Assembly: GCF_014191255.1 (NCBI RefSeq)
Contig: NZ_JACHWH010000008.1
Location: 1-64,000 of the forward strand
Direction of reading: 5' to 3'
DNA length: 64,000 nt
Source: Amycolatopsis bartoniae
GTDB taxonomy: Bacteria; Actinomycetota; Actinomycetes; Mycobacteriales; Pseudonocardiaceae
The position numbers and the translations under genes are program-made. Shown one piece after another: positions 3,134 to 46,700 of this stretch; position 1 is the first letter of the stretch; each line of letters opens with the position of its first letter. The notes under the pieces were generated by a model. It was not told the origin of the DNA. It did no database searches and saw only the letters and a list, made by a program, of their open reading frames with translations.

Positions 3134-3151
3134 CCCGGCAGGGTGCCAGCG

Positions 3152-3177
3152 GAAAGCGCTTTCAGGAAAGCCCTTTC
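3152..3177. repeat. Tandem pair of GAAAGCGCTTTC-type palindromes
   Basis: Two 14-bp direct copies abut: GGAAAGCGCTTTCA at 3151-3164 (12-bp perfect palindrome inside) and GGAAAGCCCTTTCA at 3165-3178 (one central base changed). They lie just upstream of the PI-PLC-like gene start. The sequence is the same element as in the array at 40330-40972, and it resembles the operator type recognised by LacI-family repressors (central CG, GAAAGC half-site). Whether it is an operator or a dispersed repeat cannot be decided from this window. Confidence 0.6.
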
Positions 3178-3186
3178 AGCCGGAGT

Positions 3187-24921: not shown

Positions 24922-26298
24922 TCAGGCGGTGGCGGCCGCGGAACCGGCCACCCGCCCGAACACCAGGCCCCGCAGCACGGACGTGCCGCCGGGATACTTG
25001 TCGTGGTAGATGCCGGTGCACTCGCCTGCGGCGTAGAGCCCGGGGATCGGCGCGCCCTGTTCGTCGACGACGCGGGCCTGTGCGTCGGTCTCCAGCCCGC
25101 CGAAGGTGAAGACGATCGCGCAGGCCACCGGATACGCCAGCAACGGGGCCTCGTCGACGGGCAGCGCCCAGTTGCTCTTCGGCGGCGTGAGCCCTTCGGT
25201 GTGCTTGCCGTCCGGACGGCGCCAGTCGAACTCACCGTCCACAACGGACTTGTTGTAGGCGGCCACGGTCTCGCGAAGACGTGCCACGGGCAGCTCCAGC
25301 GCGGCCGCGAGGTCTTCGACGTTCTCGGTGGTGACCGGCTTGCACCCCGTCAACAGGCCGCGTTCGCGGTCGCCGACCAGTTCGAACCTGCGGTCGGTGA
25401 TGAAGTAGGCGATGCCGCCCGGTTGCGCCCACACCGCCCGCGCCGTGCTCTCGTAGGTCTCGTCGACGGTGCCGCGCCCCTCGTCGAGAAAGCGCTCTCC
25501 GAGCTTGTTCACCAGTATCCCGTACGGGAACACCATCACCAGCGCCTCGGGGTTGTCCGCGCGCGGGTCGACCGGTTCGGCGTGGAAGCTGTCCCACTGC
25601 CCGCCCCGCTTCGCCCCGGCCGCCAACGCCATGCGGATGCCTTCGCCCTTGTTGAACCTGACCCCGGGCGCGATGGGGATGAGCGTGCTGACGTCCCCCG
25701 GCAGCGCCTCACCCAACGCCGCCGGGTCGCCCTCGAACCCGCCCGAGGCGATGATCACCGCGCGGGCGGGCAGCACGTGCTCGCCGTCCGGATCGCTGAC
25801 CCGGACGCCGGTGACCCGGCCGTCCTCGCCGGTCACCAGGTGCTGCGCCGTGGTGTGGTACCGGAACTCGACGCCGAGCTTCTCCGCGGCCGGCCGCAGC
25901 GCGGCCAGCAACGCCTCCCCACCGCCCTGCGGCTGGAGGCGGGGCCGGTTGCTGTTGATGAAGTAGGTCGGCAGACGCCGGAACCGCGCGCCATGGCCCT
26001 GGATCCACTCCATCGCCTCGGGCAGGCGCTCGACCAGCGCCTCGACGTACCACGACGGGGTGCGGCCACCGGAGAACCCGACCAATTCGTCCACAAAGGA
26101 CTTGCTGGGCTCGTAGACGTCGTCCAGGCGCAGGTACGCCGACGTCCACCTCGTGTTGCCACCCGCCTCCAGCGGGCCGGCCCGGTCCACCAGTACGACG
26201 GGAGCGCCCTGCTCGGCCGCCGAGACGGCGGCCGAGAGGCCCGCGATGCCCGCGCCGACCACCACGACGGGGTCCGGCGACGTTGCCGATGTCGTCAT
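24922..26298 (-). CDS. FAD-dependent oxidoreductase, fumarate reductase/TcuA-like
   Basis: A 458-aa flavoprotein of the succinate dehydrogenase/fumarate reductase family. It has the dinucleotide motif VVVGAGIAGLSAAVSAAEQG, then 'GGNTRWTSAYLR' (FAD contact), 'VIIASGGFEGDPAALG', and the C-terminal 'PIPGLYAAGECTGIYHDKYPGG' (in part). The best functional parallel is tricarballylate dehydrogenase TcuA, which is also encoded beside an MHS importer. The ATG at 26298 follows AGGAGAAG. Predicted role: oxidation of an imported carboxylic acid. Confidence 0.85.
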   Translation of the reverse strand: MTTSATSPDPVVVVGAGIAGLSAAVSAAEQGAPVVLVDRAGPLEAGGNTRWTSAYLRLDDVYEPSKSFVDELVGFSGGRTPSWYVEALVERLPEAMEWIQGHGARFRRLPTYFINSNRPRLQPQGGGEALLAALRPAAEKLGVEFRYHTTAQHLVTGEDGRVTGVRVSDPDGEHVLPARAVIIASGGFEGDPAALGEALPGDVSTLIPIAPGVRFNKGEGIRMALAAGAKRGGQWDSFHAEPVDPRADNPEALVMVFPYGILVNKLGERFLDEGRGTVDETYESTARAVWAQPGGIAYFITDRRFELVGDRERGLLTGCKPVTTENVEDLAAALELPVARLRETVAAYNKSVVDGEFDWRRPDGKHTEGLTPPKSNWALPVDEAPLLAYPVACAIVFTFGGLETDAQARVVDEQGAPIPGLYAAGECTGIYHDKYPGGTSVLRGLVFGRVAGSAAATA

Positions 26299-36084: not shown

Positions 36085-36177
36085 ACCGGGAAAGCTAGGC
36101 AACTCCGCGGCTCGGAAAATCACCTTGAGAAGGACATCCGGGGGTAGCTTTCAGGAGGGACAAGCACCGTTCTCGCC

Positions 36178-36189
36178 GAAAGCGCTTTC
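36178..36189. repeat. Solo GAAAGCGCTTTC palindrome
   Basis: A perfect 12-bp copy of the element repeated at 40330-40972, here alone in the divergent region between the CPBP protease and the conservon. It is 100 bases upstream of the cvnA start. Confidence 0.6.
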
Positions 36190-36289
36190 CTCCCCCCTAG
36201 CCAGGCGCCTGTGACACGTACTACTCTCCGGGACTCGTCCGCGCCCCCGAGTCATTCCCCCGTCTCTCTCGTCTCGAGGAATCTCAGCT

Positions 36290-37645
36290 ATGTCGGTACC
36301 GAACTCCGCCCGCTCCCGTACGGCCGCGCCGTTGCTCGTGCTGCTGGTCGCCGTGCTGGTCACGGGCGGCGGCTGGACCTGGGTGGTGCTGGAAACCCCC
36401 GCCGAGGTGCGGATGCTGGTCGGCGTGGCCGGTGGCGTGCTCGCGCTGCTGCTGTCCGTCGCCGCCGCCCTGCTCGCCCAGCGCGCCGCGCGGCTGCGCC
36501 GGGAGCGGGAGCAGATCTCGGCGCTGAACGACGAGCTGGGCCACCTCGTCGACGACCTCCTGCCCGCCGCGGTGCAGCGGCTGCGCAGCGGCGCGTCCGC
36601 CGACACCGTCCTGGCCCAGCTACCCAAGCCCCGCAACGAGGCGCACCAGCGACTGCTGCGCACGCTGACCCGCGAGATCAGCGTCGGCGAGCGGCGCCGC
36701 GCCGCCGCGATGGCGGCCTGTGGCAACGCGGCGGGCCGCGTGCAGGCGCTGGCCACCAGCATGCTCGCGGACCTGCGTGACATGGAACACCGCTACAGCG
36801 AGGACGCGCTCGGGGACCTGCTCAAGATCGACCACAGCACCGCGCAGGCCGGGCGGCTGGCCGACAGCATCGCGGTGCTCACCGGTGCCAGGACCGGCCG
36901 CCGCTGGACGAAGCCGATCGTGATGGAGAGCGTCCTGCGTGGCGCGATGGGCCGCATCGGCGCGTACCAGCGCGTGCACGTCCACTCGACCTGCACGTCG
37001 GCCGTCGTCGGGTACGCGGCGGAGGACGTCATGCACGCGCTCGCCGAGCTGATGGACAACGCGACGAAGTTCTCCGCTCCTTCGGAAGAGGTCCACGTCT
37101 ACGTGGAGGAGCTGCACAACGGCGTCGTGATCACCATCGAGGACGGCGGCCTCGGCATGAAGCCGCAGGCGCTCGAACGCGCGAAGGCCGCCATCGCCTC
37201 CACCGAGCCGCTCGACCTCGCGCAGCTGTCGGGCACGCGCCTCGGCCTCGCCGTCGTCGGCACGCTGGCCCGCAAGCACCAGCTGCAGGTGTTCTTCCGG
37301 CCGTCCTCCCGCGGCGGCACCGGCGTCGTGCTGCGGCTGCCGAACCAGCTGATCACCCAGCCCCGCCAGCGGCCGGCCGAGGCCGCACCGGCGCCGCGGC
37401 CCGCGCTCGAAGTACCCGCCGCCCGCCCGGCGAACCACGTCGAGTCCGCGGTGGCCGTGGAGGAGCCCAAGGCCCTGCCGAAGCGCCCGCGCGGCCAGAC
37501 GTTGAACGCCACCCGGTCGTCGGGCTCGCCATCCGGGCCGTCGTCGAACCGGCCGCGGATGGACTCCGGCGCCCGGTTCGGCGCCTTCCGCCAGGCCCGC
37601 GCCAGGAACTCCGAGGGCGGCAAGCCGTCCGACGACAGCGAGTGA
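36290..37645 (+). CDS. cvnA: Conservon sensor kinase-like ATPase (CvnA)
   Basis: A 451-aa protein with two N-terminal transmembrane helices (~14-35 and ~43-62), a helical linker, and a HATPase_c domain with the N box 'LAELMDNATKFSAPSE' and G2 region 'GTRLGLAVVGTLARKHQ'. The C-terminus is a long Pro/Ala/Arg-rich disordered tail. In Streptomyces conservons CvnA senses and recruits the CvnB-D proteins at the membrane. ATG with GAGGA 9 bases upstream. It is followed by cvnB-E in the canonical order. Confidence 0.92.
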   Translation: MSVPNSARSRTAAPLLVLLVAVLVTGGGWTWVVLETPAEVRMLVGVAGGVLALLLSVAAALLAQRAARLRREREQISALNDELGHLVDDLLPAAVQRLRSGASADTVLAQLPKPRNEAHQRLLRTLTREISVGERRRAAAMAACGNAAGRVQALATSMLADLRDMEHRYSEDALGDLLKIDHSTAQAGRLADSIAVLTGARTGRRWTKPIVMESVLRGAMGRIGAYQRVHVHSTCTSAVVGYAAEDVMHALAELMDNATKFSAPSEEVHVYVEELHNGVVITIEDGGLGMKPQALERAKAAIASTEPLDLAQLSGTRLGLAVVGTLARKHQLQVFFRPSSRGGTGVVLRLPNQLITQPRQRPAEAAPAPRPALEVPAARPANHVESAVAVEEPKALPKRPRGQTLNATRSSGSPSGPSSNRPRMDSGARFGAFRQARARNSEGGKPSDDSE

Positions 37646-37683
37646 CACAGAGATTGGAGTGCGGGGGCACCCCCGGAATTTCG

Positions 37684-38100
37684 ATGAACGCAGCAGACGC
37701 CAGCCTCGAGTGGCTACTGGAGAACCTGGTGGACGGCACCCCGGGCGCGAACCACGCGCTGGTGCTGTCCAAGGACGGTCTCAAGCTCTGCCACACCCAG
37801 CGGCTCTCGGTGGACAAGGCGGACCAGTTGGCCGCGATCGCCGCGGGCGTGCAGTCGCTCGCCCACGGTGCCTCGGTGGAGTTCGGGGACGGCAGCGGCG
37901 GGGTGCGCCAGTCGATGACCGAGTTCCACGGCGGGCTGCTGTTCATCGTGGAGGCGGGGGAAGGCGCCCACCTCGCGGTGCTCGCCTCCGACGACGCCGA
38001 CGTCGGCCTCATCGGGCACAACATGGACGAGCTGGTGGAGCAGATCGGGGCCTTCCTGACCTCGCCGCCCCGGCAGTTCCAGCCCGCGCGCCCGGCATGA
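37684..38100 (+). CDS. cvnB: Roadblock/LC7 domain protein (CvnB)
   Basis: A 138-aa protein, roadblock/LC7 fold: 'LEWLLENLVDGTPGANHALV', 'LSKDGLKLCHTQ' and 'LIGHNMDELVEQIG' (C-terminal helix). Conservon CvnB proteins act on the CvnD GTPase, similar to MglB. ATG at 37684 chosen because the upstream 14 codons are not family-like. Its stop overlaps the start of cvnC (ATGA). Confidence 0.92.
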   Translation: MNAADASLEWLLENLVDGTPGANHALVLSKDGLKLCHTQRLSVDKADQLAAIAAGVQSLAHGASVEFGDGSGGVRQSMTEFHGGLLFIVEAGEGAHLAVLASDDADVGLIGHNMDELVEQIGAFLTSPPRQFQPARPA

Positions 38101-38459
38101 TCCACCGCGCGGTCGACGACGAGGACCCGGATCGCCTCTACACGGTGACCGGGGGCCGCAGCCGGGCCGCGGACGTCGACCTCGACCTCGTCACGTTGAT
38201 CGTGAGCGAGGCCGATCCCGTGCCCGGTATGCAGTCGGAGTACGTGAAGGTGCTGCGGACGTGCCGGTTCCCGACCGCGGTCGTGGAGGTCGCCTCCGAG
38301 CTGGGGCTGCCCGTGAGCGTCGTGAAGATCCTGCTGGCGGACCTGCTCGCCGACGGCCGGATCTCCGCGCGGCACCCCTCCACGGTGTTCCGCCACGGGT
38401 CCGGCCTGCCCGACTCCGAATTCCTGAAGAAGGTGCTCGTTGGACTCAAGAACATCTGA
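38097..38459 (+). CDS. cvnC: DUF742 protein (CvnC)
   Basis: A 120-aa DUF742 protein: 'DPDRLYTVTGGRSRA', 'LDLVTLIVS', then a winged-helix-like region 'FPTAVVEVASELGLPVSVVK' and 'LLADLLADGRI'. Known conservon component that binds CvnA and CvnD. Starts in the ATGA overlap with cvnB; its last 20 bases overlap cvnD. Confidence 0.92.
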   Translation: MIHRAVDDEDPDRLYTVTGGRSRAADVDLDLVTLIVSEADPVPGMQSEYVKVLRTCRFPTAVVEVASELGLPVSVVKILLADLLADGRISARHPSTVFRHGSGLPDSEFLKKVLVGLKNI

Positions 38460-39048
38460 CCTGGCCACCCGCACGCCGCTGAGCAGCACCGCGACGGACG
38501 GGATCAAGATCGTGATCGTCGGCGGGTTCGGTGTCGGCAAGACGACGATGGTGCGCTCGGTCAGCGAGATCCGCCCACTGTCCACAGAGGAGACGATGAC
38601 CCAGGCGGGGCTGGGCATCGACTCGAACGCCGGCGCCTACGGCAAGACCACCACCACGGTGGCCTTCGACTTCGGCCGCATCAGCCTGAACGCCGAGATG
38701 GTGCTGTACCTGTTCGGCGCGCCCGGGCAGGAGCGGTTCTGGTTCCTGTGGGACAGGTTGTTTTCCGGCACGCTCGGCGCGGTCGTGCTCGTCGACACCC
38801 GGCGCGTCGAGGACTCGTGGTACGCCATCGACCGGCTGGAGCACCACGGCACGCCGTTCATCGTGGCGCGCAACAACTTCGAGCCGCCGCAGCACGACCT
38901 GGACACGGTGCGCGACGCGCTGACCCTGCCCGACGACGTGCCCCTGATCGACTGTGACGCGCGGGACCGCGAGTCGTCGAAGCGGGTGCTGGTCGGGCTC
39001 GTCGACCACCTCTATCGTCTTTCCACCGCACGGGAGACCGCATCATGA
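38440..39048 (+). CDS. cvnD: Conservon GTP-binding protein (CvnD)
   Basis: A 202-aa small GTPase-like protein. The P-loop is GGFGVGKTT (residues 28-36), the switch region is 'TVAFDFGRI', 'LFGAPGQERFWFLWD' is the G3-like motif (GxPGQ instead of DxxGQ, typical of this family), and 'VARNNFE' stands in for NKxD. TTG start inside cvnC; its stop overlaps cvnE by 4 bases. Confidence 0.92.
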   Translation: MDSRTSDLATRTPLSSTATDGIKIVIVGGFGVGKTTMVRSVSEIRPLSTEETMTQAGLGIDSNAGAYGKTTTTVAFDFGRISLNAEMVLYLFGAPGQERFWFLWDRLFSGTLGAVVLVDTRRVEDSWYAIDRLEHHGTPFIVARNNFEPPQHDLDTVRDALTLPDDVPLIDCDARDRESSKRVLVGLVDHLYRLSTARETAS

Positions 39049-40301
39049 CCGACAACCCCACTCCCTCGCCGGGGCCGCTGCGGCTGTATGGTCCGCGGTT
39101 CCAGCAGGACCCGGCGGCGCTCTACGCGACGATCCGGCGCGAGCACGGCCCGGTGGCGCCGGTGCTGCTCGACGGCGACCTCCCGGCGTGGTTCGTCTCC
39201 GGGTATCGCGAGATCCACCAGATCTGTGATGACTCGCAGCTGTTCGCGCGGGACACCCGCCGCTGGAACATGTGGGACCGGGTGCCGGAGGACTGGCCGT
39301 TGTTGCCGTACGTGGCGCACAACCCGTCGGTGATGTTCACGGAGGGCCCCGAGCACCGCCGTCGCGCGGGCGCGATCGGGGACGCGCTCAGTGCCGTGGA
39401 CCAGTTCGAGCTGCGCGCGCACTGCGAGCGGGTGGCGGACCAGCTGATCGACGTGTTCGCGGGCACCGGCGAGGCGGATCTCGTGGCGCAGTACGCCATG
39501 CGGATGCCGCTGCTGATGGTCGCGTGGATGTTCGGCTTGCCGGAGCACGAGATCCCGGCGCTGGTGCGGGACATCGCGCTGTCGCTGGACGTCGGGCCCG
39601 ACGCGATTCCCGCGTACGGCCGGGTGCAGGAGGCGATGGGGCGGCTGGTGGCGGAGAAGCACGATGCGCCCGGTGCGGACCTGCCGTCGCAGCTCATCCA
39701 GCACGAGGCGAACCTGTCCGACGAGGAGATCGTGCTGGACCTGCTGGTGGTGGCGGCGGCCGCGCAACAGCCGACAGCCAACTGGATCGGCAACACGATC
39801 CGCCTGATGTTGACAGATGAACGTTTCGCGATGACGCTGGCCGGCGGGCGCGGCAGTGTGGGGCAGGCGCTGAACGAGGTGCTGTGGCAGGACACCCCCA
39901 CGCAGAACTTCATCGGCCGGTTCGCGACCAGGGACACGCAACTGGCCGGGCAGCGGATCCGGACGGGCGACATGCTGGTGCTGGGCCTGGCGGCGGCGAA
40001 CGCGGACCCGGCGGTGCGGCCGGATTTCGCCGACCAGCACACGGGAAACCAGGCGTACATGTCCTTCGGCCACGGCGAGCACGGTTGTCCGTACCCCGCG
40101 CCGGAGGTCGCGCAGGTCATCGCGAAGACGACGGTGGAGGTGCTCCTCGACCGGCTCCCGGACCTGGAACTGGCCGTCCCGGCGGAGGAACTGGTGTGGC
40201 ACCCGTCGGTCTGGATGCGCGGCCTGGAGCGCCTGCCGGTGGCCTTCACACCGACGTACGTGGCGTCTCAAACCGGGGCGGGGGTTCCGTCGGCCTGGTG
40301 A
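39045..40301 (+). CDS. cvnE: Conservon cytochrome P450 lacking EXXR (CvnE, CYP157-like)
   Basis: A 418-aa P450. The heme loop is FGHGEHGCPYPAPE with Cys348 as ligand. The EXXR motif, otherwise nearly universal, reads E278-V-L-W281 (NEVLWQDTP), so the Arg is missing. The same loss is documented for the conservon P450 family CYP157 of Streptomyces, which keeps the P450 fold. The I-helix reads 'AAAAQQPTANW' instead of AGxxT. It overlaps cvnD by 4 bases and closes the conservon. Its redox or signalling role is unknown. Confidence 0.9.
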   Translation: MTDNPTPSPGPLRLYGPRFQQDPAALYATIRREHGPVAPVLLDGDLPAWFVSGYREIHQICDDSQLFARDTRRWNMWDRVPEDWPLLPYVAHNPSVMFTEGPEHRRRAGAIGDALSAVDQFELRAHCERVADQLIDVFAGTGEADLVAQYAMRMPLLMVAWMFGLPEHEIPALVRDIALSLDVGPDAIPAYGRVQEAMGRLVAEKHDAPGADLPSQLIQHEANLSDEEIVLDLLVVAAAAQQPTANWIGNTIRLMLTDERFAMTLAGGRGSVGQALNEVLWQDTPTQNFIGRFATRDTQLAGQRIRTGDMLVLGLAAANADPAVRPDFADQHTGNQAYMSFGHGEHGCPYPAPEVAQVIAKTTVEVLLDRLPDLELAVPAEELVWHPSVWMRGLERLPVAFTPTYVASQTGAGVPSAW

Positions 40302-40330: not shown

Positions 40331-40972
40331 AAGAAAGCGCTTGCTGACGCCTCCGCGTACCCCCTAACGCCGCTCGTCGAAAAGGGCGCTTTCTGCCCTC
40401 CAAGTGGCCCCAGCCGCCGAGAAAGCGGCTTCCTTGCCGCCCGCGCACCCCTGCGAGTGGCGCTGGCCTCCAGGAAGCGCTTTCTTCCACGCCTGGCGCC
40501 TCTGCGAGCGGCGCCGCCCGCTGAGAAAGGGCTTTCCGGACTCGTAGCCACACCCCAAGCGACACCACTCCGGGGGAGAAGGCGTTTCTGCGCCCCCATG
40601 TGCCCCACCCAAGCCGGGCCGTTGCCGGGACCGGGCCGGTTGCCGGGAAAGCACCTCCGTCCCCTCGATCCATCCCCTAAGCGACACTGCCGGGCGCGAA
40701 AACACTCGCCCCACTCCCCATATCCCTCGCCGAGCCCGCGCTGCCCGCCGAGAAAGCGCTTCCATCCACGCATGCCGCTCCTTCAAATGAAGCGACCGCC
40801 CAAGAAGCGCTTCCTGGGCTGCCTACCCCCTTCCATCCCCCGTAACCTCGGCGCGAGCAAGCGCTTTCAGACCCAACCATCCGCTCCATCGAGCCACATC
40901 GCCTGGAGAAAGCGCTTTCTACGGCCTCCAGCAGCGTCGCGAGCCACGCGCGGCTTTGAAAAAGCGCTTTCC
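40331..40972. repeat. Array of 13 phased palindromes, consensus AGAAAGCGCTTTCT
   Basis: The 697-base gap between two converging P450 genes holds 13 palindromic units, intact or degenerate. Their centres fall near 40338, 40387, 40426, 40478, 40530, 40583, 40652, 40703, 40757, 40808, 40862, 40913 and 40965. Ten of the twelve intervals are 49-55 bases, close to five helical turns; the other two are about 39 and 69. The unit at 40907-40920 is the perfect 14-bp form. Intervening ~38-base segments are related in places (CTGCGAGTGGCGC / CTGCGAGCGGCGC; AAGCGACAC twice), so the array grew by duplication of a ~52-bp unit. It encodes no convincing protein and is not a CRISPR. Solo copies lie at 3152 and 36178. 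Confidence 0.85.
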
Positions 40973-40998: not shown

Positions 40999-42228
40999 TC
41001 ACACCGCCGTCGGGATCCGGGGTGTGAAGGTGATCGGCAGTGTGGCCGGGCCGCGCGTGAACAGGCCCTGCTCCACGGGGCCCGCGCCGTCCGCCAGGCG
41101 GGCGTCCGGCATGGCGTCGAGCAGCTGGTTGAGCCCCACCTCGACCTCCGACTTCGCCAGTAGCGCTCCGACGCAGAAGTGGCGGCCCAGTGCGAACGCC
41201 AGGTGCCCGGCAGCCGCCGAGAAAGCGGTTTCCTCCGCCAGGTCCGTGCGAAAGACGTCGAACCGGTCGGGGTCGGCGAACCGGCGCGGGTCGCGGTTCG
41301 CCGCGCCGATCAGGCAGGTCACCGTGGCGCCCTTGGGCACCGTGCCCGTGCTCAGCTCGACGTCCCGCGCGGGCTGGCGCATGATCATGTGCACCGGCGG
41401 CGTGTACCGCAGGGTCTCCGCGAAAGCGCGTGGAATCAGCGACCGGTCCGCAAGCACCGCCTCGAACTGGTCCGGGTGCTCCAGCAGGTTCTTGACCACG
41501 CTCGCGATGGCCTTGTCGGTCGTCTCCCCACCGGCGGCGAGCAGCAGGCTGACGAACGCCTTGATGTCCTCGTCGCTCATCGACGTGCCGTCGACCTCGG
41601 CCTTGCACAACGTCGACAACAGGTCGTCGCCGAGGTTTTGCCTGCGTTCGCGGATCACCGGAATCATGTACTCGGCCAGCTCGTCCCGCGTGCGCAACCC
41701 GTCGGCGGCCACTTCCGGGTCCTGGCTGAGGTTCCCGAGGAACGCGATGATCGACGTGTACCACTTCTGGAAGCGCGCGTGCTCGCTGCGGTCCAGCCCG
41801 AGCATGTCCACGATGACGTTGATCGGGAAGTGCCGCGCGAACTCGGAAACCAGGTCGACCTCGCCGCGGTCGCGGAACGAGTCGATGAGCTGACGGGCGT
41901 TGCGTTCGATCACCGGCAGGAACTTGCGCTCCAGTTCGCTGCCGCGGAACGCCGGCGCGACGAGCGCCCGGCGCACCGCGTGCTCCCGGCCGCTCATCTG
42001 CAGGATCGTCTTGCCATGCACCGGTTCCAGCTGCCAGTTGTAGTTGTCGGTTGTGAAAGCGGGCTCCTTGAAAGCCCGCGCCACGTCCTCGTACCGCGAA
42101 ACGACGTAACTCTGCGTCGCCTCGTGCCAGAACAACGGCGCGGTGTCCAGCATGACGCGATAAGCCGCATAAGGGTTTTCGGCGAATTCCGGGGAAAGTA
42201 TGTCAGGTGCTTCGCCTGCCGCGGGCAT
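40999..42228 (-). CDS. Cytochrome P450
   Basis: A 409-aa P450 with all core motifs: I-helix 'LLLAAGGETTDK', K-helix EXXR as 'FAETLRYTPP', and the heme loop 'FALGRHFCVGALLAKSE'. Overall it resembles CYP107-like bacterial P450s of secondary metabolism. The 5' end is ATG 42228. It is transcribed toward the conservon P450, with the palindrome array between the two 3' ends. No ferredoxin gene is adjacent. Confidence 0.9.
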   Translation of the reverse strand: MPAAGEAPDILSPEFAENPYAAYRVMLDTAPLFWHEATQSYVVSRYEDVARAFKEPAFTTDNYNWQLEPVHGKTILQMSGREHAVRRALVAPAFRGSELERKFLPVIERNARQLIDSFRDRGEVDLVSEFARHFPINVIVDMLGLDRSEHARFQKWYTSIIAFLGNLSQDPEVAADGLRTRDELAEYMIPVIRERRQNLGDDLLSTLCKAEVDGTSMSDEDIKAFVSLLLAAGGETTDKAIASVVKNLLEHPDQFEAVLADRSLIPRAFAETLRYTPPVHMIMRQPARDVELSTGTVPKGATVTCLIGAANRDPRRFADPDRFDVFRTDLAEETAFSAAAGHLAFALGRHFCVGALLAKSEVEVGLNQLLDAMPDARLADGAGPVEQGLFTRGPATLPITFTPRIPTAV

Positions 42229-43732: not shown

Positions 43733-46700
43733 GTGCAGATCGGGATGCTGGGACCGTTCGAGGTACGCACGGACGACGGCCTCCTGGCCGACGTGCCGGG
43801 CGCCCGGTTGCGCGCACTGCTGATCGCCCTCGCGCTCGAACCGGGCCGCGTGGTTCCCAAGGGCACGCTCGTCGACTGGATCTGGGGCGAGCGCCCGCCC
43901 GCCGACGCGACCAACGCCCTGCAGCGCCTGGTTTCCCGGCTGCGGAAGGCACTGCCGGAAGGCTCGGTCGAGGGGCAGCCCAACGGCTACCGGTTGGCGG
44001 TGCCGCCCGATGAGGTCGACGCCGTGCGGTTCGAACGCCTCGTCGGCGAGGCCCGCGACGACGACGATCCGCGCCGGCTGCGCGAGGCGCTCTCGCTGTG
44101 GCGCGGCGCGGCCATGCAGGAGGTCGGCCTGCAGGACAGTGCGGCGTTCGACGCGGCGGTCACCCGGCTCGAGGCTCTGCGCCTGACCGCGCTGGAGGAC
44201 CGGTTCGACGCGGATCTCCGCCTCGGCCACGGCGCAAAGCTCGTCACGGAGCTGACCGACCTGGTGGCCGCGCACCCGGTACGCGAGCGGCTCGTCGGCG
44301 CGTTGATGCGGGCCCTCGTCGCGAGCGGCCGCGACACCGAGGCGCTGCTGGTTTATGAGCGCACGCGGGAAACCCTGGCCGAAGAGCTGGGCGCGGATCC
44401 GTCGCCGGAGCTGTCCGCGTTGCACGTCTCGTTGCTGCGCGGCGAGCTGAGGGAGCGGAAGGAAACCCCGAAGACCAACCTGCGCGCCGAGCTGACCAGT
44501 TACGTCGGCAAGGACGCCGACGTCGCCGCGGTCCGCGAACTCGTCACCGGGCACCGGCTCACCACGCTGATCGGGCCGGGTGGTTCGGGAAAGACCAGGC
44601 TGGCCACGGAAACCGCGCGCACGCTGCTCGACGACCTGCCGGACGGCGTGCGGCTGGTCGAGCTCGCCGCCATCGGTGTCGAGGACGACGTGGCGCAGGC
44701 GACGCTCGCCGCGCTCGGCCTGCGTGACGCGTTGCTCGGCGACGTACCGGACGCGGAGCCGACCGACCGGGTCATCGCGGCCGTCCGCGAGCGGGAAATG
44801 GTGCTGGTACTGGACAACTGCGAGCACGTGATCGAATCCGCCGCGGCGTTCGCCCACCGCGTGCTCGGCGAGTGCCGCCGGCTGCGGATCCTTGCGACGA
44901 GCCGGGAACCGCTCAGCATCACCGGGGAGGCGCTCTGGCCGGTCGCGCCACTGGAACTGCCCGGGGAGAACGCCGACCCGCGCGAGATCGAGTCCTCCCC
45001 GGCCGTCAAGCTGCTGCTGGACCGGGCCGCCGCGGTGCGCAAGGAGCTCGGAGCCGACGCCCGCACGTTGGCCACGATGGCGCGCATCTGCGGGGCGCTG
45101 GACGGAATGCCGCTGGCCATCGAACTCGCCGCGGCGCGGTTGCGCACCCTGTCCCTCGACCAGCTCGCCGCCAGGCTCGACGACCGGTTCCGCCTGCTGA
45201 CCGGCGGCAGCCGCACGGCGCTGCCGCGGCACCGGACGCTGCGGGCGGTGATCGACTGGAGCTGGGAGCTGCTCACCGACGCCGAACGCCTTGTGCTGCG
45301 CAGGCTTTCGGTGTTCTCCGGCGGGGCGAGTTTGGCAGCGGCCGAGCGGGTCTGCGCCGACGAAACCGCCGAGGAACTGCTGACGGCGTTGACCGAGAAG
45401 TCGCTGCTGGTGGTCACCGAAGAGGATTCGGTGCCGCGCTACCGGATGCTCGGCACCATCAAGGAGTACGCCGCGCAGCGCCTCGCGGAGGCGGGCGAAT
45501 CGGATTCGGCCCGCCGCGCGCACCTCGCGTACTTCACCGAACTCGCCGAAACCGCGGAGCCGCACCTGCGCCGCGCGGAGCAGCTGGAATGGCTCACCAC
45601 CCTCGAAGCCGAGCACGACAACCTCACGGCCGCCATGCGCGGCGCGCTCGCGGCGGGCGAGGCTACCGAAGCCATGCGGCTCGCGGCGGCCGCCGGCTGG
45701 TACTGGTGGTTCGGCGGCCACAAGGTGGAGGGCAACGAGCTGCTCTTGGCGGCCACCGCCGTGCCAGGCGAGGTGCCGGACGAGATCCGGGCCGTGGTCT
45801 ACGCCTTCGTCTCGATGTTCGTGGTTTCCGGGCGGAGCGACCAGTTCGCGGCTGCGGAGTGGATCCGCAGGGCGGACGAGATCAGCCGGCGAGTGCCGCA
45901 CTGGCACCCCGCGCTGCGGGTGATGGCTCCGATGGAACACATGCTGCACGGCCCGGACGCGCTCCTGTCCGCGTGGGAACCGCTGATCGACGACGAGGAC
46001 CCTTGGGTCCGCGGCCTCGCCCGGCTGCAGCACGGCAAGATGCGGATCGTGCTCGGCCACGGCGGACGCGACGTCGACGCCTACTTCGAGAAAGCGCTTA
46101 CCGACTTCCGGAGCGTCGGCGACCGGTGGGGAATCTCCTTCGCTCTCGCCGAACTGGCGGACCGAATCGCCGTGCGTGGTGAGTTCGCCGCCGCGTGCGA
46201 GTACTACGAACAAGCGGTCGCCGTCGTCACCGAGGTTGGGTCCACAGAGGACCTCGTGCGAATGCGGTCGCGGCAGGCACAGTTGTACTGGCTGCTGGGC
46301 GACGAGGAGTCGAGTGCGGCGGCGATGGCGGAGGCGCAGCGGTACGCGGGACTGGTCGCCTGGCCGGAGGCGCACGTCGAGCTCGCACTGGCGAAAGCGG
46401 AGCTCGCGCGCTGGAGCGGCGATTTCGAGGAGGCGCAACAACAACTCGCCGCCGCGACAGCTGTACTGGGCAGCGACGCCGAGCGGGCGCAGATCCGTGC
46501 GGTGACCCACGATTTGCTCGGCTACCTGACCGAGGATCCCGCTGCGGCCCGTGAACACCGGGCCGCGGCGCTGCGGGCGGCGACCGAGGGAGGATATTCG
46601 GCTCTGATCGCCCAGGTGCTCGTCGGTGTCGCGGATTTGGCGCTGCGCAACCAACAACACGAGCAGGCCGCGCGGTTGCTCGCGGCGAGCGCCACCGTGC

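Follow-up and report, generated by a model that had tools for sequence, protein, structure and literature searches.

The gap between two converging genes in a 64-kb stretch of Amycolatopsis bartoniae DNA (the window, meaning the whole stretch analysed) carries an array of 13 palindromic units which, on balance, are probably clustered operators to which a CcpA-like protein of the LacI family would bind, grown in place by tandem duplication of an approximately 52-bp unit. The array would be part of a chromosome-wide set of the palindromic word GAAAGCGCTTTC, which appears to be favoured at the DNA level.

Results

The 14-mer AGAAAGCGCTTTCT and its relatives with at most three mismatches are found 17 times in the window versus 0.77 ± 0.85 times in shuffled sequence (100 shuffles, maximum 4), which bears out the claim of an earlier note on this DNA that 13 palindromes recur at this place (Table 1). 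Ten of the 13 array units differ from AGAAAGCGCTTTCT by three mismatches or fewer, one of them being exact, and the decayed units at ~40577, 40646 and 40697 show five to six mismatches, yet lie close to the common grid. With the unit starts placed by hand from the mismatch listing before the spacings were computed, the start-to-start steps are 49, 39, 52, 52, 53, 69, 51, 54, 51, 54, 51 and 52 bp, such that 10 of the 12 spacings fall between 49 and 54 bp. These are near five turns of DNA, as the note had pointed out in proposing that all units face the same side of the helix, but the series is broken by the steps of 39 and 69 bp. Helical phasing as a general rule is unsupported: arrays elsewhere have periods of 81 and 103 bp, and a Rayleigh test on the 19 spacings in the DNA read gives p values of 0.17–0.58 for periods of 10.0–11.2.

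From stop codon to stop codon the gap spans 697 bp and is, as had been noted, otherwise gene-free; the ORF list with its translations holds only mechanical ORFs there, by which a protein-coding array was ruled out. Neither a sigma-70-like promoter nor a terminator-like site was detected in the gap by a consensus scan, and the comparison with known RNA families returned one sub-threshold match (19.1 bits versus a gathering threshold of 55, E 0.51). The spacers between the units align better all against all than shuffled spacers do (score 0.83 versus −2.10 ± 0.40, 200 shuffles) and, because of this, the array seems to have grown by tandem duplication, in line with the traces of ~52-bp duplication reported beforehand; such duplication would explain the ~52-bp period. 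Tandem Repeats Finder, whose sole output is an 18-bp pair, leaves the 52-bp array unreported; the presumable cause is excessive divergence among the spacers. CRISPR arrays combine longer conserved repeats with unrelated spacers, whereas here the conserved part comprises 12–14 bp and the spacers are related by duplication, and the distinction from CRISPR drawn initially holds.

The gene left of the array was read as P450-like from its own sequence and its place beside the Roadblock and GTPase-like genes, which belong to a gene set that we take to be conservon-type. The palindromes had been described as lying between two P450 genes; copies are indeed located between the genes, but the P450 gene on the right has an extra one in its own coding sequence.

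Table 1. Features of the window and further arrays in the same genome (array locations are given as contig and position)
Feature	Position	Strand	Basis or remark
Array of 13 palindromic units	40332..40972	.	Pattern matching, spacer alignment, shuffles
14-mer starts of the 13 units	40332, 40381, 40420, 40472, 40524, ~40577, 40646, 40697, 40751, 40802, 40856, 40907, 40959		
Exact AGAAAGCGCTTTCT	40907..40920	.	Sole exact unit of the array
Gene left of array, P450-like by eye	39045..40301	+	No Pfam match at E ≤ 1e-5
Cytochrome P450 gene, converging on array	40999..42228	-	PF00067
Histidine-kinase-type ATPase, Roadblock/LC7 protein, GTPase-like ATP_bind_1 protein, small ORF between	36290..39048	+	Pfam and ORFs
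AGAAAGCGGTTTCC, inside right-hand P450 coding sequence	41220..41233	.	Motif scan, 2 mismatches
CGAAAGCGCTTTCC, dispersed, between divergent genes	36177..36190	.	Motif scan, exact core copy
GGAAAGCGCTTTCA, followed by a 3-mismatch copy	3151..3178	.	Motif scan, exact core copy
AGAAAGCGCTCTCC, dispersed	25487..25500	.	Motif scan, 2 mismatches
AGAAAGCGCTTACC, dispersed	46089..46102	.	Motif scan, 2 mismatches
Array, 103-bp repeat	C3:927782		Plain tandem, recognisable spacers
Array, 81–83 bp, five exact copies	C5:149337		Plain tandem, recognisable spacers
Further clusters	C5:159809, C4:153342, C4:406396, C3:609790, C1:114297		
Further group	C3:163428		Shown by wider-word count

The gene pair flanking the array is present in the relatives G003 (83–84% identical) and G010 (76%), the only two in which it matched closely enough for comparison. 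Between the flanking matches of these two genomes no palindrome array is found, the pieces being 53 and 11 bases apart. As the same two genes nearly abut without an array in both relatives, the array is most simply read as a local tandem expansion, which would have taken place in the lineage of the window.

Defined as at least three copies with at most two mismatches, further arrays exist in the DNA read (Table 1), and the array of the window is the largest GAAAGCGCTTTC cluster in the 2.06 Mb of the window's genome (G000) read. At G000:C5:149220-149700, the last part of a gene seems to be where the 81–83 bp repeat begins, with five exact copies before the next gene. In a gap of 2.6 kb where no gene was called, the long stretch G000:C1:114200-115000 abounds in related words (GTGAAACCGCTTTCACG, GAAGCCGCTTTC) and may be an uncalled repetitive gene, and a run of short CAGCCCGCGGCGACC-like repeats lies at G000:C4:153640-153900 beside a three-copy palindrome cluster.

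Absence of the array from both G003 and G010 also suits the view that it is a passive minisatellite in an unconstrained convergent gap, in which the duplicated unit happened to hold a common palindrome, with the dispersed sites possibly being of importance. The periods indeed vary among arrays (81–83, 103 and ~52 bp), two of which (C5:149337, C3:927782) consist of plain tandem repeats. Neutral decay, however, does not predict that palindromes are better kept than spacers, as is the case in the three arrays measured (ungapped conservation of 1.00 versus 0.71, 0.95 versus 0.62 and 0.72 versus 0.37). Within the array of the window, pairwise identity amounts to 72% in the palindrome columns and to 36–37% in the flanks, and ten of the 13 palindromes have stayed within three mismatches though spacer identity (~37%) is not far from chance (~29%). 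We consequently regard a purely passive origin as unlikely.

Outside the window the word is abundant. The genome (7.757 Mb) contains 88 copies of GAAAGCGCTTTC and not one of the same letters reversed, and chance frequency genome-wide, which would have spoken against the motif, was not encountered. A 1.264-Mb sample, drawn partly from stretches already known to hold GAAAGCGCTTTC sites, contains 30 copies versus 0.0097 expected from an order-3 Markov model; because the sample favoured site-holding stretches, the genome-wide excess is nearer to the ~1,500-fold obtained by scaling to the genome by hand than to the ~3,000-fold of the sample. No other 12-mer palindrome comes near this ratio, the next-best in the sample reaching 138 on three copies, and the excess is therefore tied to this one sequence. 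Of 18 symmetric substitutes that preserve the pairing, 15 do not occur in the sample, though each was expected at most 0.45 times, and two position-2 variants are enriched too, with three and two copies.

Based on genes called by the analysis script, the 86 exact copies read in the 2.06 Mb distribute over coding sequence (52), convergent gaps (11), tandem gaps (10 + 6) and divergent gaps (7). After collapsing by hand to 73 loci, 21 are located in gaps of all kinds versus a baseline of 12.5% (p 0.0002) and seven in convergent gaps versus a baseline of 2.6% (p 0.003). By eye, no obvious origin- or terminus-limited placing was seen, including among the 27 sites of G003, a relative with a complete genome.

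Inside genes, 16 coding copies of GAAAGCGCTTTC in the 1.264-Mb sample face 0.0103 expected under independent synonymous-codon choice, a figure which carries the same caution about site-biased sampling. The codons used by the coding copies are rare (GCT 1.9%, CTT 1.1%, TTT 1.9%, AAA 6.6%). The KAL(S) frame holds 11 of the coding copies, with KALS occurring 16 times in the sample, and three of the seven ESAF peptides found there are written with the word, that is with some of the rarest codons. Two near-identical HTH-type proteins, G000:C1:85766 and G000:C14:37107, have the exact word in the same ESAF peptide. The coding copies are positioned evenly along genes (KS p 0.81, n = 52), a spread which ordinary promoter control does not explain, and their host genes look diverse, as judged by eye for 20 of the 52 proteins.

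For comparison with G003, 14 sites were randomly drawn from 48 interior coding sites, 12 of which were alignable across the site. The exact word is retained in two of the 12 orthologues and a version with one mismatch in four; ten alignments have no gap within the 30 columns shown, and in the others G000 is without a palindrome-sized insert. Mobile insertion as the source of the coding copies was rejected, since the differences from G003 are substitutions. Several of the G010 alignments at coding sites have gaps. The word thus appears to be favoured at the DNA level with turnover of single sites, which seem to come and go because so few of the aligned G003 orthologues keep it exactly.

Within the genus, the core GAAAGCGCTTTC was recovered in 19 of 19 genomes searched, with counts from 1 to 88; nine genomes have at least 19 copies and ten have at most seven. 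Outside the genus the top core count is 16 (233 family genomes). The wider word GWAAGCGCTTWC is present 122 times in the window's genome (reversed control 0) and, among the matches listed, 63 times in Kitasatospora cheerisanensis, 40 times in Kitasatospora sp. CB01950, 25 times in K. griseola and 11 times in Amycolatopsis orientalis, with reversed counts of 0 each; arrays, some with 24-bp steps, occur in Kitasatospora too among the matches listed. Among the genomes searched, only some members of the genus have high counts, and Kitasatospora provides a parallel. As regards a substitute palindrome in low-count relatives, in 80 kb of the low-count genome G015 no copy with at most two mismatches and no 12-mer palindrome present more than twice was found, and 40 kb of the high-count genome G012 contain one 2-mismatch copy.

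The word, a near-perfect palindrome with a central CpG flanked by an A/G-rich arm on one side and a T/C-rich arm on the other, looks like a CcpA/LacI-type operator. As best candidate binder we infer the CcpA-like LacI protein P0002 (G000:C1:1229204) or its paralogue P0001. Compared with solved structures, P0002 matches CcpA best (2o20, E 4.6e-43) with PurR close behind (E 5.2e-42), and its recognition stretch VSLATASRVLNG is nearly identical to VSMATVSRVVNG of CcpA. In each of the 19 genomes of the genus P0002 gives the top match, with 76–100% identity over 58–60 N-terminal residues; its gene lies near, not adjoining, a dihydrolipoyl dehydrogenase gene (by eye), with a 134-residue ORF between. 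A word with at most three mismatches is situated at −43/−44 of P0002 in six of the nine genomes with at least 19 copies and in one of the ten with at most seven, a pattern that descent alone could give. The site of P0002 in G000 itself has two mismatches. High-count genomes without the word at this position are G001 (50 copies), G002 (24) and G013 (19), and weaker or more distant words precede P0002 in four low-count genomes and in G013.

At least 117 loci with two motif copies 40–70 bases apart were fetched from public genomes. Among the matches listed, a gene for a P0002 relative is present at 31 of 117 loci (tblastn E ≤ 1e-12) and was not seen at the other 86; as a raw count, a copy lies at most 364 bp upstream of the start of that gene at 25 of the 31. 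These 25 loci are not independent, because approximately 14 of them, again among the matches listed, represent one Streptomyces arrangement with 36–51% identity. The closest relatives among the matches listed are those of Kibdelosporangium (two loci, 67% identity) and Actinoallomurus (63–72%), and two exact copies and one near copy precede them. Many Streptomyces among the matches listed (L082, L087, L097, L108, L114, L130 and others) have two copies ~68 bp apart before a LacI-family gene.

The second candidate, P0001, is 62% identical to P0002 over the HTH and has a one-mismatch copy 45 bases before its start, and in A. orientalis two exact copies precede the apparent orthologue (by eye) of the gene divergent from P0001. 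Other LacI proteins were discarded as binders: of 24 LacI matches, only L271 beyond P0002 and P0001 has a copy with at most two mismatches within 100 bp upstream.

Discussion

Among the functions considered in the earlier note, a platform on which a repressor or nucleoid protein would bind at many sites fares best, because the word is an ideal LacI/CcpA-type operator, its excess is specific to the sequence and the palindromes are better kept than the spacers. More tentatively, several dimers bound to such a platform might stop RNA polymerase arriving from either side, which would insulate the two converging genes, and the wider set of sites might act globally. A CcpA complex bound downstream of a transcription start blocks elongation (PMC3463425), and such a roadblock would fit both the excess of the word in convergent gaps and its presence within genes. 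The array might also act by titration, by bridging or otherwise organising the chromosome, or not at all, and it may be no more than a passive by-product, the site itself being of importance elsewhere. More speculatively, and with considerable doubt, a CcpA-like LacI protein may have become a chromosome-wide architectural or roadblock protein in one branch of the genus and independently in Kitasatospora, with operators placed in synonymous positions of unrelated genes and multiplied into arrays insulating converging genes.

In B. subtilis, the cre boxes of CcpA follow the consensus WTGNNARCGNWWWCAW with near-identical single boxes such as TGAAAGCGCTTTCT, and most of the 418 predicted boxes are also located inside ORFs far from promoters (PMC3463425). 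Cre boxes and LacI-GalR operators share with the word the palindrome with central CpG and, as the candidate binder is CcpA-like, the type of protein, but the word differs in its over-representation at synonymous sites in genes, its tandem arrays and the lack of bias along genes.

In pattern, the nearest analogue are the HIP sequences of cyanobacteria, HIP1 included, which are likewise over-represented palindromes, replaced or lost between related genomes (PMC4390886); the word here is found in coding and non-coding DNA alike. It could be produced by a DNA-level process such as the one proposed for HIPs, methylation-directed mismatch repair, with no dedicated binding protein, for which its palindromic nature, its presence in and between genes, its restriction to lineages and its use of synonymous positions would speak. 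This origin is quite improbable: the word reaches 11 per Mb versus 1000–2000 per Mb for HIPs (PMC4390886), being about a hundredfold rarer, it has 12–14 bp with AT-rich arms and conforms to a known operator type, arrays keep it locally, and it precedes LacI-family genes in other genera.

The array might instead be a sponge that titrates a LacI-type repressor away from regulated promoters. Titration is favoured by the gap, in which no sigma-70-like promoter was matched, by the many copies away from promoters and by the finding that decoys are able to function in E. coli (PMC7826281), but one cluster adds few sites beside 88 exact and many near copies genome-wide and the preference for convergent gaps is left unexplained, which leaves the sponge with little probability. 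Extragenic hairpins of a REP-like kind, also raised by the note, or bidirectional terminators acting as RNA fail and are highly improbable despite the palindromes between converging genes, because called coding sequence holds 52 of the 86 exact copies and AGAAAGCGCTTTCT forms a weak RNA stem (−0.7 kcal/mol, reaching −6 when the arms are extended), added to which the gap has no terminator-like site and no other palindrome is of like abundance.

REP and REPIN sequences are extragenic palindromes that occur in clusters. The word resembles them in being palindromic and clustered, and differs in that the majority of its exact copies in the DNA read are coding and the hairpin is weak. Dispersed sites that organise chromosomes, namely matS/MatP, NBS/Noc and SBS/SlmA, comprise tens to hundreds of short chromosomal palindromes, also within genes. 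Dispersal of short palindromes, some in genes, is common to these and to the word, which unlike them forms arrays and, by eye for the 27 sites of G003, has no obvious terminus or origin limit.

Of six papers in which the 12-mer appears, none is on actinobacteria, judged by titles, and titles and abstract beginnings yielded no such motif or array. Operators of this type are well known; the combination of genome-wide excess at synonymous sites, local arrays and turnover was not found in titles and abstract beginnings. If the binder is confirmed, a repressor-type operator would be favoured within genes in spite of codon bias and would have been multiplied into arrays, a departure from the usual understanding of LacI-family sites. 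It would then also provide a natural test system for intragenic roadblocks, for the insulation of converging genes and for a repressor turned chromosome organiser. The range from 1 to 88 copies within one genus offers the chance to watch such sites arise.

Besides GAAAGCGCTTTC, a second over-represented dyad, ATTGTCAACAAT / GATTGTTGACAA, is present in the 1.264-Mb sample with 8–10 copies where far below one is expected. A third dyad family, GTCCACTGTGGAC with the variants GTCCGATGTGGAC and GTCCACTTCGGAC (TGTCC-N5-GGACA), reaches ~9–17 copies per 12-mer in the G000 sample, and its 5-base arms are enriched in G003 as well.
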